A DNA stretch of 64,000 nucleotides, from NCBI RefSeq assembly GCF_007115105.1, contig NZ_SULJ01000006.1:498-64497 (forward strand), given 5' to 3'. The notes beneath the pieces are model-generated. The model did not search any database. It saw only the letters and a program-made list of their open reading frames with translations, and was not told the DNA's origin. The stretch comes from Clostridium sp. HBUAS56010 (lineage in GTDB: Bacteria; Bacillota; Clostridia; Lachnospirales; Lachnospiraceae). This document shows positions 57,777 to 63,996 of the stretch, piece by piece. Within the stretch, counting starts at the first letter, position 1; each line of letters begins with the position of its first letter. The position numbers and the translations under genes are program-made.

Positions 57777-60476
57777 TTAACTGCACTTCGATACAAACAT
57801 ATCTTTTTTTCTTCTGCGTTTCTCGTAAATCCGATATGCTTTATCAACTTCCGTAATCAGTAAAATGATTAATCCGGTAGCAAATGCAATCCCCCATTCC
57901 CGAAGGGTAAGGGCTTCTGTCTGAAATGCCTGCTGCATAAATGGAATATAAGTAAACGCCGCCTGGAGCAAAAGCATGATTCCGATAATGAGAAATGCTT
58001 TCGGGTTGGTAAACAGGGCATCCGATAGTGCTGGTTTTGAAGTACGGATATTAAACAGATAAAAAATCTTGCTGATAACAATGACATTAACCATCATTGT
58101 ACTTGCCGTCTTCTGATCTAACCCGGCACGAATCAGCCAGTCTTGTGACACTAAACTTATCACCGCTATCAAAACGGATACATAAGCCATCTGAATGATA
58201 TCATGGCGGTTCATTAATCCGCTTCCTGTCTTTCTGGGAGCACGCTTCATAATTCCTGGTTCTGCCGGTTCAAAAATAAATGCAAACTGGATCGTAATTG
58301 CAGAAACCATGTTGATCCACAAAAGCTGTGTTGCCTGAAGCGGCATGTCTCTTTGCATCAAAAGGGTAAATGCAACAATCAGACCTTCTGCAAACGAGGT
58401 AGGCAGTAAGAATAAAATACTCTTTTTAATGTTGTCATATATGCGCCTGCCTTCTTTTATGGCAACAGACATGGTCGCAAAGTTGTCATCGGTTAAAATC
58501 ATATCGGCAGAATCTTTTGCAACATCCGTACCTTTCATTCCCATGGCAACTCCAATATCAGCTCTCTTTAAAGCGGGAGCATCGTTTACCCCATCTCCTG
58601 TCATTGCCGTTACCTTTTCACTTGCCTGCAGCGCTTTTACAATCTCTAACTTATTCTTTGGTGTTGCTCTTGCAAATACCTGGTGAGTAAGAGCCGTTTC
58701 CTTTTTATCCTCTTCCGTCAGTTTATCCCATTGGGGACCTGTAATAACTTTAATATGGTCCGCAAGACCTAACTTCTGTCCAATGATCCTGGCTGTTATA
58801 GGGTGGTCGCCGGTTATCATCTTTACTTCCACACCGGCTCTTCTCATCTCTTTCAGGGACTCAATTACCTCTTCCCTTGGCGGGTCAATAATTCCTGTTA
58901 ATCCAAGGAAACACATTCCCTCATGAAGCAGGGTATGGCTGACCTCCTGGACATCAGAAGAGACTTCTTTGTACCCAACAGCAACAACCCTTTTTCCCTG
59001 TTCGGATAAAAGCTTAACCCGCTGATTCCATATATTTATATCAAAAGAACTATCGTATGCCTGAGCCATTGGAAATAGTTTATCCGGTGACCCTTTGATA
59101 AATACTTTCCTTTTACCGTTCTGATCCTCTACTAATTTTGCTATATAGCGGTAATCAGAGTCAAAGGGCAGTATATCTATTTCCTGGTAATGAGGTTCTG
59201 AATCAACCGGAAAAACTTTGTGGTAAAGCGTTAAAAATGATCCATCGGTTGGCTCTCCGCTTATGTTCCATTTTCCATTTTCCTCAATTAACTGTGTATC
59301 ATTTGCCTCATAACCGGCTTCCAGAAATAATTGGAGCTCCGGTGATAGTTCTGCTGGTTTATTGTTTTCTGTTATTTCTCCTTTTGGTTCATATCCGGTT
59401 CCGCTTACCTTGTAGACATGATCGCTAATCATAAGGTTTTTTACGGTCATTTCATTCTTTGTCAACGTACCTGTTTTGTCTGTTGCGATGACGTCTACGG
59501 AACCAAGTGTTTCAATTGCGGGCAGGGATTTGACGATGGTATGTTTTTTCTTCGCCATATCATTGACACCCATTGCAAGAATTACCGAAGTCGTAGCAGG
59601 CAGACCTTCCGGCATGGAACCCACAATCATGGTTACAACGGCTAAGGAAAGCACAGGCAATGAGTAAATCTGAAAGATCATTCCCAGAGCAAACAATAGA
59701 ATGGACGCAATAATTACTACGATGGATACACCTTTGCCAAGGTTATCAATTTCTTTCATCAGAGGAGTTTTTCTTTCCACAACGTTATTTACTTCCGTTG
59801 ATATCTTACCGATCTCTGTATGTTCACCCGTTGCAACAACGACTGCAACTCCACTTCCGCTGGTTATAGAGGTGGAAGCAAAAGCTATATTCTTCTGCTC
59901 TGCCAATGCTACATCTTCGTCCAATATGGTTTCGTTTGTTTTCTCTACGGAATCAGACTCTCCTGTTAATGCAGATTCCTGAATCTTTAAATTATCGCAA
60001 TCCACAATACGCAGATCTGCCGGAACGTTATCTCCTGCTTCCAAAAAGACCACGTCTCCAACGACGAGCTTTTCAGCAGAAATATCTTTCCGGATGCCAT
60101 CCCGGTATACGGTGGCTTTGACCGAAAGCATGGCTTTGATCTTCTCCAGTGCATCGGATGCATTGGCCTCCTGATAGTAACCGATCAGGGCATTGGCGAT
60201 AATGACCAGTCCGATTATAATTGCATCGGAATGATGTCCCATTATGATGGTCAGCATTGCGGCTACAATCAGAATATAGATAATCATGTTGTTAAATTGC
60301 TTTACAAACAGCTTCCATTTCTGCACCTTCTGACCTTTTAATTCATTTGGTCCAAATTCAATCAGTCTCTTTGCCGCCTCTTCTTCACTTAATCCCTGTT
60401 CAAAATCCTGTTCTAGATAATTCCCTGTTAATTCTTCTAAACTTATTCGATAATGTTCTTTTTTCTGTTGTTCCAT
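57777..60476 (-). CDS. Cation-translocating P-type ATPase (P2 type)
   Basis: An 899-residue membrane pump. The actuator motif is TGESDSVEKT, the phosphorylation site is ATDKTGTLTKNEM (about residue 333), and the hinge is MTGDGVNDAPALKRADIGVAMG. It has an N-terminal cation-ATPase domain and a C-terminal six-helix region. TM4 has SMPEGLPATTSVI, as in Ca2+ and related pumps. TM6 reads LLWINMVSAITIQFAFIFEP, lacking the Asp found in the SERCA-type LLWVNLVTDG. Ion choice is therefore uncertain: Ca2+, Mg2+ or a monovalent ion. Upstream are a short acidic leader ORF and a terminator-like hairpin, implying attenuation. AGGAG precedes the ATG. Confidence 0.9.
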   Translation of the reverse strand: MEQQKKEHYRISLEELTGNYLEQDFEQGLSEEEAAKRLIEFGPNELKGQKVQKWKLFVKQFNNMIIYILIVAAMLTIIMGHHSDAIIIGLVIIANALIGYYQEANASDALEKIKAMLSVKATVYRDGIRKDISAEKLVVGDVVFLEAGDNVPADLRIVDCDNLKIQESALTGESDSVEKTNETILDEDVALAEQKNIAFASTSITSGSGVAVVVATGEHTEIGKISTEVNNVVERKTPLMKEIDNLGKGVSIVVIIASILLFALGMIFQIYSLPVLSLAVVTMIVGSMPEGLPATTSVILAMGVNDMAKKKHTIVKSLPAIETLGSVDVIATDKTGTLTKNEMTVKNLMISDHVYKVSGTGYEPKGEITENNKPAELSPELQLFLEAGYEANDTQLIEENGKWNISGEPTDGSFLTLYHKVFPVDSEPHYQEIDILPFDSDYRYIAKLVEDQNGKRKVFIKGSPDKLFPMAQAYDSSFDINIWNQRVKLLSEQGKRVVAVGYKEVSSDVQEVSHTLLHEGMCFLGLTGIIDPPREEVIESLKEMRRAGVEVKMITGDHPITARIIGQKLGLADHIKVITGPQWDKLTEEDKKETALTHQVFARATPKNKLEIVKALQASEKVTAMTGDGVNDAPALKRADIGVAMGMKGTDVAKDSADMILTDDNFATMSVAIKEGRRIYDNIKKSILFLLPTSFAEGLIVAFTLLMQRDMPLQATQLLWINMVSAITIQFAFIFEPAEPGIMKRAPRKTGSGLMNRHDIIQMAYVSVLIAVISLVSQDWLIRAGLDQKTASTMMVNVIVISKIFYLFNIRTSKPALSDALFTNPKAFLIIGIMLLLQAAFTYIPFMQQAFQTEALTLREWGIAFATGLIILLITEVDKAYRIYEKRRRKKDMFVSKCS

Positions 60477-60502
60477 TGTTTTCTCCTATTATTTTTAAGT
60501 AC

Positions 60503-60534
60503 GCAAAAATAGCACCTTGTTAAAAACAACGTGC
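60503..60534 (-). terminator. Attenuator-like terminator ahead of the P-type ATPase
   Basis: In the transcript GCAC-G-UUGUU pairs with AACAA-G-GUGC (one G/G mismatch, UUU loop), followed by UAUUUUUG. It starts 14 nt after the stop codon of the short upstream ORF and ends about 27 nt before the ATPase start. Confidence 0.6.
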
Positions 60535-60548
60535 ATCACAAAAATTAC

Positions 60549-60626
60549 TTATTCAATTTGGGGAAAACAATGAAACGTATTTAATGAGTACGTATGTATA
60601 TGCGTATCATCCGAATCATCAGACAT
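60549..60626 (-). CDS. 25-codon leader peptide of the P-type ATPase
   Basis: AAAAGGAGGTG lies 6-8 nt before the ATG at 60626, a stronger ribosome binding site than that of most genes here. The peptide begins MSDDSDDTHIHTYS and later contains HC and a Pro, then stops at 60551-60549. Four Asp within the first seven residues, three His and one Cys suggest either a cation-binding peptide or a destabilising nascent chain, like the acidic leader peptides of Mg2+ transporters. It has no hydrophobic segment, so an independent membrane role is unlikely. A terminator-like hairpin follows at once. No homologue is known to me. Confidence 0.55.
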   Translation of the reverse strand: MSDDSDDTHIHTYSLNTFHCFPQIE

Positions 60627-60642
60627 CAATTACACCTCCTTT

Positions 60643-60680
60643 TCTGATGTTAATTTATCAGATTTTTCGACATAATTCAA
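60643..60680 (-). promoter_or_regulatory. Possible promoter and hairpin upstream of the leader peptide
   Basis: TTGAAT (60680-60675), 17-nt spacer, TAAATT (60657-60652) is a fair sigma-A promoter. TCTGAT (60662-60657) and ATCAGA (60648-60643) can also pair; if a promoter further upstream is used, that hairpin lies in the RNA. ATCAGA could instead pair with TCTGAT in codons 2-3 of the leader, looping out the ribosome binding site. The rest of the interval to 60936 is AT-rich, with nothing else recognised. Confidence 0.4.
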
Positions 60681-60936: not shown

Positions 60937-62349
60937 ATGATTTTAGACCTAACCAGCAAAAAACCATTATATAACCAGATATATCAGCAGATCAGACAGG
61001 ATATTCTTACCGGTGTTATGAAGCAGGGGAGCAGGCTCAAATCAAGCCGGGCTCTTTCTTCGGAACTGGGAATCAGCAGGAATACGGTTGATCTTGCCTA
61101 TGATCACTTATTTGCAGAAGGCTTCATCACAAGCGTGCCGAGAAAAGGCTATTATGTAGAAATACCTGATATGCTCCCTGTACCAGACAAGGGCACTTTT
61201 AAGGAAACCTGCTGCTGTTCCAATAAAGAATCTCATCATGATGACAAAATTTTATATGACTTTCAATCGGATAAACTGCTCATAACAGAATTTCCCTGTC
61301 ATCAATGGAAAAAACTGCTTTTAAGATGCATCCATGAACATTCTGAAGAATCAGAAGAAGCTTCCGTATTTGGCAGTCTGGGGCTTCAGACGGAAATCAG
61401 GCGGTTTTTACATCTATACAGCAATGTGGAATGCAGTACCGAACAGATTTTAATAACAACAGGGAGGCAGCATTGTCTGGAGCTGGCATGCCGGCTGATT
61501 AAAACCGTGGATTCCAGACCATACATCGCCTTGGAAGATCCTGGCTTTGATCAGTCCCGAATTACCCTTCAAAACAATGGATGTCAGATCTTCCCCATGA
61601 AACTGGATTCCCTTGGGCCACTGATTCCTTCCATAGAGAAAACAGCCATTGGGGCAGCATATGTTACACCATCCCATGAATTTCCAACAGGCATTGGGAT
61701 GTCTCTGTCCAGACGCAAGGAATTCTCCCGTTGGGCTGACACAGCCAGTACCTATCTCATTGAGGATGAATCCAACTGCTTTTTTCACCACAATTTAAAA
61801 CCTTTTCCGCCTCTCCATCACTTAAACCCGGAAAGGACCTTTTATCTGGGTGGTTTTTCTGATCTTTTATACCCATGTGTGGATGTGGCCTTTCTGGTGG
61901 TTCCTGCTTCCCTTGTTACTGCCATGCACAGGCTGATTGACCAGCATACTCCATTTGTGCCTTACCTTTCCCAAAAACCACTGGAACTGTTTTTAAAGGA
62001 AGGCCACTGGGATGCCCATATCCGGAGAGTGAGAAAAATGAAAAAAGAAAAATGCAGACTTCTGATTCATGCTTTAAAGCATCGGTTCGGGCATCAGATT
62101 CATATCTCCGATTTTCAATCCGGGATGTACATTCTGATTCAGGCAAAATGGCACATCACGGAAGAAGAACTGGTAACACAGGCTTATGAAGCAGGAATCC
62201 TGGTATGCCCTGTATCCAAATCCTGGTATGAGCCCGAACCGTGCCAATCCCCGTCTCTGCTTCTTCATTACAGCCACATCTCTTTCGAAGACATTGCACC
62301 TTGTGTGGACCGGCTCTATGAAACGTGGTCTGCTGGACTGGAACCATAA
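60937..62349 (+). CDS. MocR/PdxR-like GntR regulator with a degenerate aminotransferase domain
   Basis: A 470-residue fusion: an N-terminal GntR winged helix (KPLYNQIYQQIRQDILTG, SSRALSSELGISRNTVDLAYDHL) and a C-terminal class I aminotransferase-like domain. In MocR proteins PLP binds a Lys in an FSK motif; here the stretch is YLGGFSDLLYPCVDVAFLVVP, with Asp309 at the Lys position and no Arg in the following phosphate-binding segment. The other PLP region reads YLIEDESNCFF instead of the usual EDDYDSEF. The effector is therefore unlikely to be covalently bound PLP. GAAAGGA lies before the ATG. The target is unknown; the neighbouring ATPase and iron genes are candidates. Confidence 0.85.
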   Translation: MILDLTSKKPLYNQIYQQIRQDILTGVMKQGSRLKSSRALSSELGISRNTVDLAYDHLFAEGFITSVPRKGYYVEIPDMLPVPDKGTFKETCCCSNKESHHDDKILYDFQSDKLLITEFPCHQWKKLLLRCIHEHSEESEEASVFGSLGLQTEIRRFLHLYSNVECSTEQILITTGRQHCLELACRLIKTVDSRPYIALEDPGFDQSRITLQNNGCQIFPMKLDSLGPLIPSIEKTAIGAAYVTPSHEFPTGIGMSLSRRKEFSRWADTASTYLIEDESNCFFHHNLKPFPPLHHLNPERTFYLGGFSDLLYPCVDVAFLVVPASLVTAMHRLIDQHTPFVPYLSQKPLELFLKEGHWDAHIRRVRKMKKEKCRLLIHALKHRFGHQIHISDFQSGMYILIQAKWHITEEELVTQAYEAGILVCPVSKSWYEPEPCQSPSLLLHYSHISFEDIAPCVDRLYETWSAGLEP

Positions 62350-62425
62350 GAGAGGGCGACTCTGGCTCTTTTCTCCTTTTGGAAAGGCCGATAATATAAA
62401 AGAAAAAAGCAAAAAGGGGGATATT

Positions 62426-62644
62426 ATGCTTTTGTCACTGGCACCCATTGGGGAGTTAATTCAAATCAGCGGAATCTGGGCGGAGGAAGAATACACTGCC
62501 CTCTTAAAGGAAGCTGGGATCGTAGTAAATGCAAGGGTACGCATTCTGTTTAAACCCTCAAAAGAAATATTTGTTATCGGAAGCAATGGAAGGCGTATCA
62601 TGATTGATGAATTTCTGGCAAGAAAAATTATTGTGCACTGTTAA
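62426..62644 (+). CDS. FeoA-like small protein
   Basis: A 72-residue SH3-like protein: LSLAPIGELIQISGIWAEEEYTALLKEAGIVVNARVRILF and a hydrophobic, basic end with FLARKIIV, matching the FeoA/DtxR-C domain pattern. FeoA proteins assist the FeoB ferrous transporter; feoB is not in the window, although an FTR1 permease follows. AAAGGGGG lies 5 nt before the ATG at 62426. A possible weak hairpin (about 62347-62378) separates it from the regulator gene. Confidence 0.7.
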   Translation: MLLSLAPIGELIQISGIWAEEEYTALLKEAGIVVNARVRILFKPSKEIFVIGSNGRRIMIDEFLARKIIVHC

Positions 62645-62721: not shown

Positions 62722-62790
62722 ATGAATGCGGTATATAGATTTTACGGCTTACAGCCGGTATACCTAAACTTTAAGAAAGGAGGAAATAAA

Positions 62791-63996
62791 GTGCGCAGAT
62801 TATTATCCATACTTATGTTTGTACTTGTTCTTTTCAGTACATTTCCAACTGCCGCCTATGCAGAATCCGCCCATGACACATGGAACGATGTGGTCGATGA
62901 CATGGAAGCCATTCTATTGGAATCTTATGATCTTTATACAGCAGGATCTCCCAAAGAGGCGAAAGCCAAAGTAGACGTGGCATATTTCTCTTACTATGAG
63001 AAACTGGGATTTGAAAAGACAGTTATGGCACATATATCCGGCAACCGGGCTGCTACCGTAGAATATCAGTTCAGCTTTGCAAAAAAAGCAATCAACGGAG
63101 ACAAAAGCAACGAAGAAGTAAAAGCTTCCCTTGATGAACTGACCAAACTGTTACGGGAAGATGCAAACCAGTTAGATGGAAAGCAGGAAAGTGCACTGGG
63201 TGTCTTTCTTGGTTCTCTTTTAATTATTACCAGAGAAGGCTTTGAAGCGATTATTATTGTGGGTGCAATTATCGCATATCTGGTCAAGTCCGGTCATAAG
63301 GACAAAACAAAAGCCGTCTACGGCGGTTCTGTCATCGCTCTGGGAGCAAGTGTTATTATGGCTTTTATTTTAAATGCTCTTTCTGGGGTGAACGGAGCCA
63401 ATCAGGAGATTACAGAAGGTGTGACCATGCTGATTGCCGTTGCCGTACTTTTTTATGTCAGCAACTGGATGGTCTCCAAATCAGAAGCTCAGGCATGGAC
63501 TCATTACATTGAAGGCAAAGTACAAAGTTCCATTACAAAGGGAAGTCTCTTTTCACTTGCTTTTGCTGCATTCCTGGCTGTTTTCAGAGAAGGGGCTGAA
63601 ACCATTCTCTTTTACAAAGCTTTGCTTGCAGGAACCCAGAGTTATTATAACATGGTCTGGCTGGGACTTGGAGTCGGATGCATCATTCTGGTTGTGATCT
63701 ATCTGTTGATCCGCTTTATGAGCATTAAACTGCCGTTAAAGCCGTTTTTCCTCGGCACCAGCATTCTGCTGTTTGTAATGTCCATATCTTTTATCGGTTC
63801 AGCCGTAAAAGAATTGCAGGAAGGCAACCTTGTGGGCGTAACACCGGTACCTGGAGTTACCTCCATCAGCATCCTTGGAATCTATCCAACCCTGGAAACC
63901 TTAATTCCACAGGTAATTCTGCTGATTCTGACACTTATTACATTTGTAATCCAGATCCGCAAAACAAAACGATCTAAAATAATCCATTCCAAGTGA
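62791..63996 (+). CDS. FTR1/EfeU-family high-affinity iron permease
   Basis: A 401-residue membrane protein that imports ferric or ferrous iron. A signal peptide (RRLLSILMFVLVLFSTFPTAAYA) is followed by an extracytoplasmic helical domain (about 25-130) and seven or so membrane helices with the two iron motifs REGFEAII (about residue 147) and REGAETILF (about 266). I use the GTG at 62791 because AAGGAGG lies 7 nt upstream and a clean signal peptide follows; an ATG at 62722 sits at the edge of the operator. EfeO/EfeB-like partners, if present, would lie beyond the window end. Confidence 0.9.
   Translation: MRRLLSILMFVLVLFSTFPTAAYAESAHDTWNDVVDDMEAILLESYDLYTAGSPKEAKAKVDVAYFSYYEKLGFEKTVMAHISGNRAATVEYQFSFAKKAINGDKSNEEVKASLDELTKLLREDANQLDGKQESALGVFLGSLLIITREGFEAIIIVGAIIAYLVKSGHKDKTKAVYGGSVIALGASVIMAFILNALSGVNGANQEITEGVTMLIAVAVLFYVSNWMVSKSEAQAWTHYIEGKVQSSITKGSLFSLAFAAFLAVFREGAETILFYKALLAGTQSYYNMVWLGLGVGCIILVVIYLLIRFMSIKLPLKPFFLGTSILLFVMSISFIGSAVKELQEGNLVGVTPVPGVTSISILGIYPTLETLIPQVILLILTLITFVIQIRKTKRSKIIHSK

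Follow-up and report, generated by a model that had tools for sequence, protein, structure and literature searches.

Comparison with described leader-peptide systems

In Escherichia coli and Salmonella, acidic N-termini destabilise or pause ribosomes (PMC11282234, PMC8092293). We describe here a short acidic open reading frame (ORF) that precedes a P-type ATPase gene in a 64,000-nucleotide (nt) stretch of DNA from Clostridium sp. HBUAS56010 (family Lachnospiraceae; contig NZ_SULJ01000006.1, positions 498 to 64,497), hereafter the window. The locus is probably a translational attenuator that works through a leader peptide and has an intrinsic terminator built in, and its computed support consists of a promoter-like element, a strong Shine-Dalgarno (SD) sequence, a short ORF, conserved peptide ends, a terminator and a nested lock on the ribosome-binding site (RBS) of the pump. 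Trp-type transcription attenuators also consist of a leader ORF followed by an intrinsic terminator; the present locus shares this order of elements but has neither a supported antiterminator nor a pathway-linked codon run.

The nearest known system is Salmonella mgtQ of mgtCBRU, where a short acidic ORF with a strong SD precedes a P-type ATPase gene, the RBS of that gene lies in a stem-loop, and leader translation frees it (PMC8092293). The window is predicted to have the same arrangement, although its polarity is apparently opposite. The mgtQ peptide has 8 residues, lies between genes and is accompanied by competing stems, and its acidic destabilisation promotes expression (PMC8092293), whereas here the 3' end of the ORF is itself the predicted anti-RBS strand, the peptide carries a C-terminal Glu-stop motif, an intrinsic terminator follows, the pump belongs to another class and the hosts are unrelated. 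Similar to MgtL of E. coli mgtA, an acidic and proline-containing opening (EPDP there, DPD in several relatives of the present leader) stands ahead of a cation ATPase. However, mgtA has a Rho-dependent terminator and is induced by low Mg2+ (PMC11282234), in contrast to the intrinsic terminator and RBS lock predicted below, and any kinship between the two would be conjectural.

The ermC and ermB translational attenuators offer a further parallel, since a ribosome stalled in their leader exposes an occluded downstream SD (PMC5118997), and a stall is predicted here; there, however, it is induced by macrolides and the controlled gene encodes a methyltransferase, not an ion pump. Searches of open-licence papers in PubMed Central (PMC2965389 and PMC13009471 among those consulted) brought up neither a leader peptide described for this ATPase nor a Gram-positive counterpart to MgtL or MgtQ, which is weak evidence of absence. 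If true, the proposed reading would provide a compact case in which an ion pump is under the joint control of nascent-chain chemistry, the choice of stop codon and RNA pairing, both in genomes and in Enterococcus faecalis plasmids, and the leader would offer an approach to the substrate of pumps that, as a group, lack a usual ion-binding Asp.

Architecture of the leader region

An earlier sequence-only reading had placed a leader SD, a 25-codon ORF ending in TAA, a 14-nt gap, a hairpin, a U-run and the ATPase in this order on the minus strand, and all of these elements lie where it put them. The features of the locus, as now understood, are the following.

60652 to 60680, minus strand: promoter-like element recognised by eye (-35 TTGAAT at 60680-60675, 17 nt, -10 TAAATT at 60657-60652, with TGA before the -10)
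60633 to 60643, minus strand: leader SD AAAAGGAGGTG, recognised from the sequence, with SD-like sequence also in relatives
60549 to 60626, minus strand: leader ORF, with ATG at 60626, 25 sense codons (MSDDSDDTHIHTYSLNTFHCFPQIE) and TAA at 60551-60549
60560 to 60575, minus strand: predicted anti-RBS strand Z within the leader ORF (TTTCATTGTTTTC, C, CC), from pairing and fold computations
60546 to 60551, minus strand: predicted 5' side of a middle helix, UAAGUA, formed by the stop codon and the 3 nt after it, from predicted folds and a family pairing test
60512 to 60534, minus strand: predicted intrinsic-terminator hairpin GCACGTTG..CAAGGTGC, -9.3 kcal/mol, 14 nt after the TAA
60504 to 60511, minus strand: U-run TATTTTTG, from the search for a hairpin with U-run
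60496 to 60501, minus strand: predicted 3' side of the middle helix, UACUUA, downstream of the U-run, from predicted folds
60471 to 60487, minus strand: RBS and start of the ATPase, AGGAGAAAACAATGGAA, predicted to be sequestered, from pairing, opening-energy and fold computations
57777 to 60476, minus strand: P-type ATPase ORF of 899 residues, with LMCA1 and SPCA1 as nearest solved structures

Transcription is predicted from the promoter-like element to start near 60645. The window peptide has an acidic N-terminus and ends in FPQIE. No Rfam family matched the window leader region at its gathering score, with weak sub-threshold matches only, and no coding sequence is listed at the place of the leader in the (incomplete) gene table of NZ_CP015884.1.

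A family of acidic leader peptides

We tabulated 36 leaders, selected for having a short ORF with its own SD before the pump; by eye, many of them have a comparable promoter-like element at equal distance. The peptides range from 17 to 39 residues (examples are MSSDSSDGEQKMYFALPYFLIE, MDPDAGETSLIKQKIPYFQKE, MSEELDDDERLFYVEIPYFQIE and MSEDDDGAHRQLNWPYFRRE), and both ends hold. Most leaders end in [Y/F][F/Y]-x-[I/K/R]-Glu-stop: among the 32 non-duplicates, the last five positions carry Tyr in 24 and Phe in 4, Phe in 24 and Tyr in 4, Leu in 16 and Gln in 13, Ile in 18, Lys in 8 and Arg in 5, and finally Glu in 29. Three leaders with a C-terminus other than Glu (L060, L072 and L077) were retained in the set. 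At the other end, Asp occupies position 4 in 28 of the 32, and at least three Asp or Glu occur within residues 2-9 in 27 of the 32, against 3% of 146 ORFs of at least 150 residues (a baseline in which the first Met was taken as the start and chance ORFs are possibly included). The leaders stop with TAG (23) or TAA (9) and never with TGA, whereas the long ORFs at the same loci use TAA 63, TAG 20 and TGA 11 times.

Both conserved ends exceed what the underlying base changes would give. C-terminal amino-acid identity is 3.63 versus 2.97 under random placement of the same base changes (324 pairs; 0 of 300 simulations), and the N-terminal value is 4.48 versus 3.61 (91 pairs; 0 of 300). These tests used 32 of the 36 leaders in non-independent pairs with few base differences, and the simulation counts are not exact probabilities because the leaders share descent. 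The leader ORF thus appears to be constrained at the amino-acid level across the family, and its translation is predicted. A leader-peptide query against 105 genomes matched 12, in every case directly upstream of this ATPase, and missed the MDPD-type leaders. The resemblance to MgtL that the sequence-only reading saw in the acidic leader is borne out, as is its proposal of a leader-peptide attenuator upstream of the pump, peptide ends and hairpin both recurring in relatives; the Mg2+ link and the sensed ion are inferred.

A predicted lock on the start of the pump gene

The closing 36 nt of the leader ORF complement the RBS and AUG of the ATPase. In the window, TTTCATTGTTTTC and CC (60575-60560) are predicted to pair with GG and GAAAACAATGGAA (60486-60471) through 13+2 base pairs at -17.3 kcal/mol. 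A 116-nt stretch of the window has a predicted fold of -33.8 versus -18.0 for shuffled sequences (z -5.1, 0 of 200 as good), and the transcript from the predicted start gives z -3.0, with 1 of 200 shuffles as good. We compared 25 representatives of the 36 leaders in the partner, codon and ribosome tests, 11 near-duplicates having been removed. The 3' end of the ORF pairs with its own RBS at -13.67 kcal/mol versus -10.10 when partners are permuted (z -6.4, 0 of 100,000), and the window leader ranks its own RBS first of the 25. In the scan, the signal is strongest for 20-nt pieces whose first base lies 30 or 24 nt upstream of the end of the ORF, and controls built on the start of the ORF, the ATPase codons, the leader SD or the promoter were null. 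In 22 of the 25, the codons chosen favour the pairing more than the peptide sequence requires (mean z -1.22; 7 fall below 0.05).

A middle helix between the stop-codon region and the segment after the U-run, UAAGUA/UACUUA in the window, is also supported (z -3.4, for 21 representatives of the 32 leaders that have a terminator hairpin). The three predicted helices nest, with the terminator hairpin inside and the U-run bulged out. As in Erm-type attenuators, the target RBS is thus predicted to be sequestered by leader RNA.

The attenuator proposed by the sequence-only reading is supported, but the gate with the best support is the pairing that the 3' end of the ORF is predicted to make with the RBS of the ATPase, which lies outside the interval marked in that reading (60503 to 60680). 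The reading had also proposed that ATCAGA, by pairing with either of two TCTGAT copies, might gate the ribosome-binding site. All three motifs exist as written (TCTGAT at 60662-60657, ATCAGA at 60648-60643 and TCTGAT at 60623-60618), but such gating found no support, and we rejected it: the pairing is missing in the fold from the predicted start, and the first TCTGAT overlaps the predicted promoter, so that this copy and part of ATCAGA are probably untranscribed given a start near 60645. A 7-bp version forms in one fold when 25 nt of extra upstream sequence are supplied. In relatives, the leader-SD region showed no matched pairing either with the RBS of the pump or with the end of the ORF.

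The predicted intrinsic terminator and possible transcription attenuation

A hairpin with U-run was returned in 32 of the 36 leaders (atypical in L060) and not in L073, L084, L089 and L090; where present, it begins 0-14 nt after the leader stop. When the post-stop region of the window was dinucleotide-shuffled 100 times, one shuffle reached its score for hairpin plus U-run. Further tests, together with one RBS-pairing set, used 27 non-redundant leaders of the 32: 25 of them have a score of -10 or better, versus 2% of shuffles, and the inner stem of the terminator prefers its own partner (-3.82) to swapped ones (-1.08; 0 of 20,000). At the base of the terminator (60512-60534 and its counterparts) we observed a G.G mismatch and similar sequence kept in many relatives, with the inner stem varying freely. 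Pairing of the ORF with the terminator arms was unsupported (5' arm p 0.81, 3' arm p 0.07), and therefore no classic antiterminator was found; a trp-type one, with mutually exclusive hairpins between the ORF and the terminator arms, was rejected as unsupported in both folds and pairing tests.

Such a well-kept hairpin, far above shuffles and lying near the ribosome edge, would also suit an element that is mainly a transcription attenuator, in which ribosome pausing at the leader stop would interfere with the terminator hairpin and RBS pairing would be secondary. We regard this as unlikely. Two of the four leaders for which no hairpin was returned (L073 and L089) retain strong RBS pairing, which is weak in the other two (L084 and L090); the antiterminator was not found; and the 14-nt spacing of the window puts the hairpin beyond the modelled ribosome, taken to block the leader stop together with the 20 nt preceding and the 10 nt following it (an assumed footprint).

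A model for control of the pump

The preferred reading, translational attenuation through the RBS lock, was examined with ribosomes modelled on the leader. Opening the segment from SD to AUG costs 15.3 kcal/mol in the window and 6.3 kcal/mol on average; a modelled ribosome at the leader stop brings this down to 3.2 and 3.3 kcal/mol, respectively, and eases opening by at least 1 kcal/mol in 20 of the 25 representatives. If the 3' half of the leader carried no ribosome, the pump start would be locked, many transcripts would end at the U-run, and the pump would hence be off. A ribosome that reaches [Y/F][F/Y]-x-[I/K/R]-Glu-stop and lingers there would free the RBS and turn the pump on. Since the leader RNA is predicted to fold over the start signal of the pump, synthesis of the pump probably requires that a ribosome arrive at the end of the leader. 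The acidic N-terminus, in turn, would cause ribosome drop-off when a stabilising cation is scarce, leaving the pump off. The sign of the output would then be opposite to that of MgtL and MgtQ, fitting an exporter, if acidic destabilisation applies here.

TAG and TAA are stops read by release factor 1 (RF1). At stops of this kind, the C-terminal motif may delay release of the peptide, and the conserved C-terminus together with the choice of stop suggests ribosome stalling in the leader. More tentatively, the leader could be a two-part nascent-chain sensor, with an acidic start that sheds ribosomes at low stabilising cation and an aromatic..Glu-stop end (TAG or TAA) that holds those that arrive, unlocking the start and passing the terminator. 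This would be the chemistry of MgtL and MgtQ with opposite sign, evolved separately in Gram-positive bacteria; we consider it possible but doubtful.

Several results weigh against translational attenuation by this lock. The own partner is top-ranked in only 8 of the 25 representatives, the window included. Controls with reversed sequences give a mild positive signal (z -2.3 and -2.6 versus -6.5), so that shared composition accounts for part of the partner signal. In seven of the 25 (L075, L076, L078, L084, L085, L090 and L149) the pairing is no better than with a shuffled RBS (fraction as good at least 0.2). The window itself scores 0.063 on the synonymous-recoding test, and in L078, L085 and L095 over half of the recodings match or exceed the native pairing. 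A ribosome at the stop does not ease opening by as much as 1 kcal/mol in L013, L075, L142, L143 and L149, and one at the acidic codons eases it in 5 of the 25. The sequence-only reading had a ribosome at the leader stop covering the start of the hairpin; in the window it would barely touch the hairpin, which starts 14 nt further on. Finally, stalling and its signal are inferred.

The opposite polarity, akin to that of mgtQ, would mean that ribosome loss at the acidic codons leaves the 3' end of the ORF to base-pair with the leader's own SD, so that the pump RBS is freed and low Mg2+ turns the pump on. Competing stems operate in mgtQ (PMC8092293), and several leader-only folds show that the ORF end can form this pairing. 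However, no matched pairing was found between leader SD and ORF 3' end (p 0.84) or between the ORF halves (p 0.72), in a test to which invariant pairing is invisible; the pump start remains closed on average with a ribosome at the acidic codons (mean opening cost 6.7, window 16.3 kcal/mol); and the window fold prefers the RBS lock. We hold this polarity to be quite improbable. That the ORF encodes a small trans-acting protein, acting for example on the pump, with incidental RNA features, would account for the amino-acid-level selection but is very improbable given the variable length (17-39 residues), the RBS complementarity with codon tuning, and a terminator separating the two genes.

Distribution and descent of the pump and its leader

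Counts in this section hold for samples drawn from larger groups or capped in size. The pump was found in 1 of 299 host-family genomes (E<=1e-220), that of the window only. The conservation check proposed by the sequence-only reading thus yielded no orthologues in the 298 other host-family genomes sampled, but short ORF and hairpin are kept in the relatives of the pump around Enterococcus. In the phylum sample, 8 of 398 genomes match, the own one included, with one other close relative (66% identical) and the rest at 41-47%. The pump is present in 72 of 395 genomes from the order (E<=1e-240) and in 24 of 105 from the family (E<=1e-300) of the E. alishanensis genome G099 (L012), and in 2 of 348 from the order of Amphibacillus marinus (E<=1e-260), A. 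marinus itself included. Six E. faecalis plasmid records match the pump at 66-67% identity. A DNA search with the window leader matched 9 of 99 genomes, one being its own and the other eight sharing pieces of 31-68 bases, and gave no plasmid match.

In a maximum-likelihood tree of 54 pumps, that of the window groups with 15 others in a clade (16 rows, support 96/93) whose members all carry the leader; these 15 come from the searches around G099. Horizontal acquisition of the pump by the host would be the simplest reading. Within the 49-row ingroup, 35 rows are labelled as having a leader, and L150 also bears one though unlabelled; L148 is a further row, with a truncated pump; four rows (L080-L083) have a different short ORF, and the leader was not found in eight (L015, L086, L091-L094, L096 and L097). 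Among 40 further stretches, many from more distant pumps, an intact leader was seen only in L137 and a decayed one in L106 (L120-L136 were screened by automatic ORF scan only, L107 and L134 not at all).

In L148 and L106, both from genome G849, the pump gene is truncated, and the leader, seen in L106, has an internal stop; leader and pump appear to be decaying together. The leaders and pumps of L149-L151 are carried by E. faecalis plasmids that were typed as either conjugative or mobilizable. Other elements were seen upstream of related pumps. A sister group, L080-L083 and L098, is arranged differently within about 130 nt upstream of the ATPase: an SD-like GGAGTG is followed by a short ORF that may start at CTG (LKTNLIYFLHRIRS in L082) and then by a hairpin and seven T. 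The orthologous pumps of L116, L117 and L118 are without a leader peptide and have a conserved structured 5' region, CTTGCGGGAGTAGCG..ACGGCCAACCTTAA..AGACGCAAAG, that looks riboswitch-like by eye; a yybP-ykoY-like Mn2+ riboswitch, suggested in the same way, was rejected as no Rfam family matched, RF00080 included.

The pump and its neighbours

The best solved-structure matches of the pump are the Listeria Ca2+ pump LMCA1 and SPCA1. It scores below the NCBIfam equivalog cut-offs for PMR1 (TIGR01522, 572.2 vs 798.3) and SERCA (TIGR01116, 497.1 vs 703.4), and below that for Mg2+-type ATPases (TIGR01524, 334.6 bits vs 610.75). The helix-6 Asp takes part in ion binding. In the alignment, the pump has Ala in its helix-6 motif where LMCA1 and SPCA1 have this Asp; the motif was found in 52 of the 54 tree rows, with Ala in all 52 and the form MVSAI in 47. 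Because the Asp is replaced by Ala across the orthologue group, the ion of the pump may be unusual.

Beside the pump lies a divergent PdxR-type MocR regulator (60937-62349, plus strand). Two further ORFs on the plus strand are found nearby, one with a FeoA domain (62186-62644) and one for an FTR1/EfeU-like iron permease (62722-63996).
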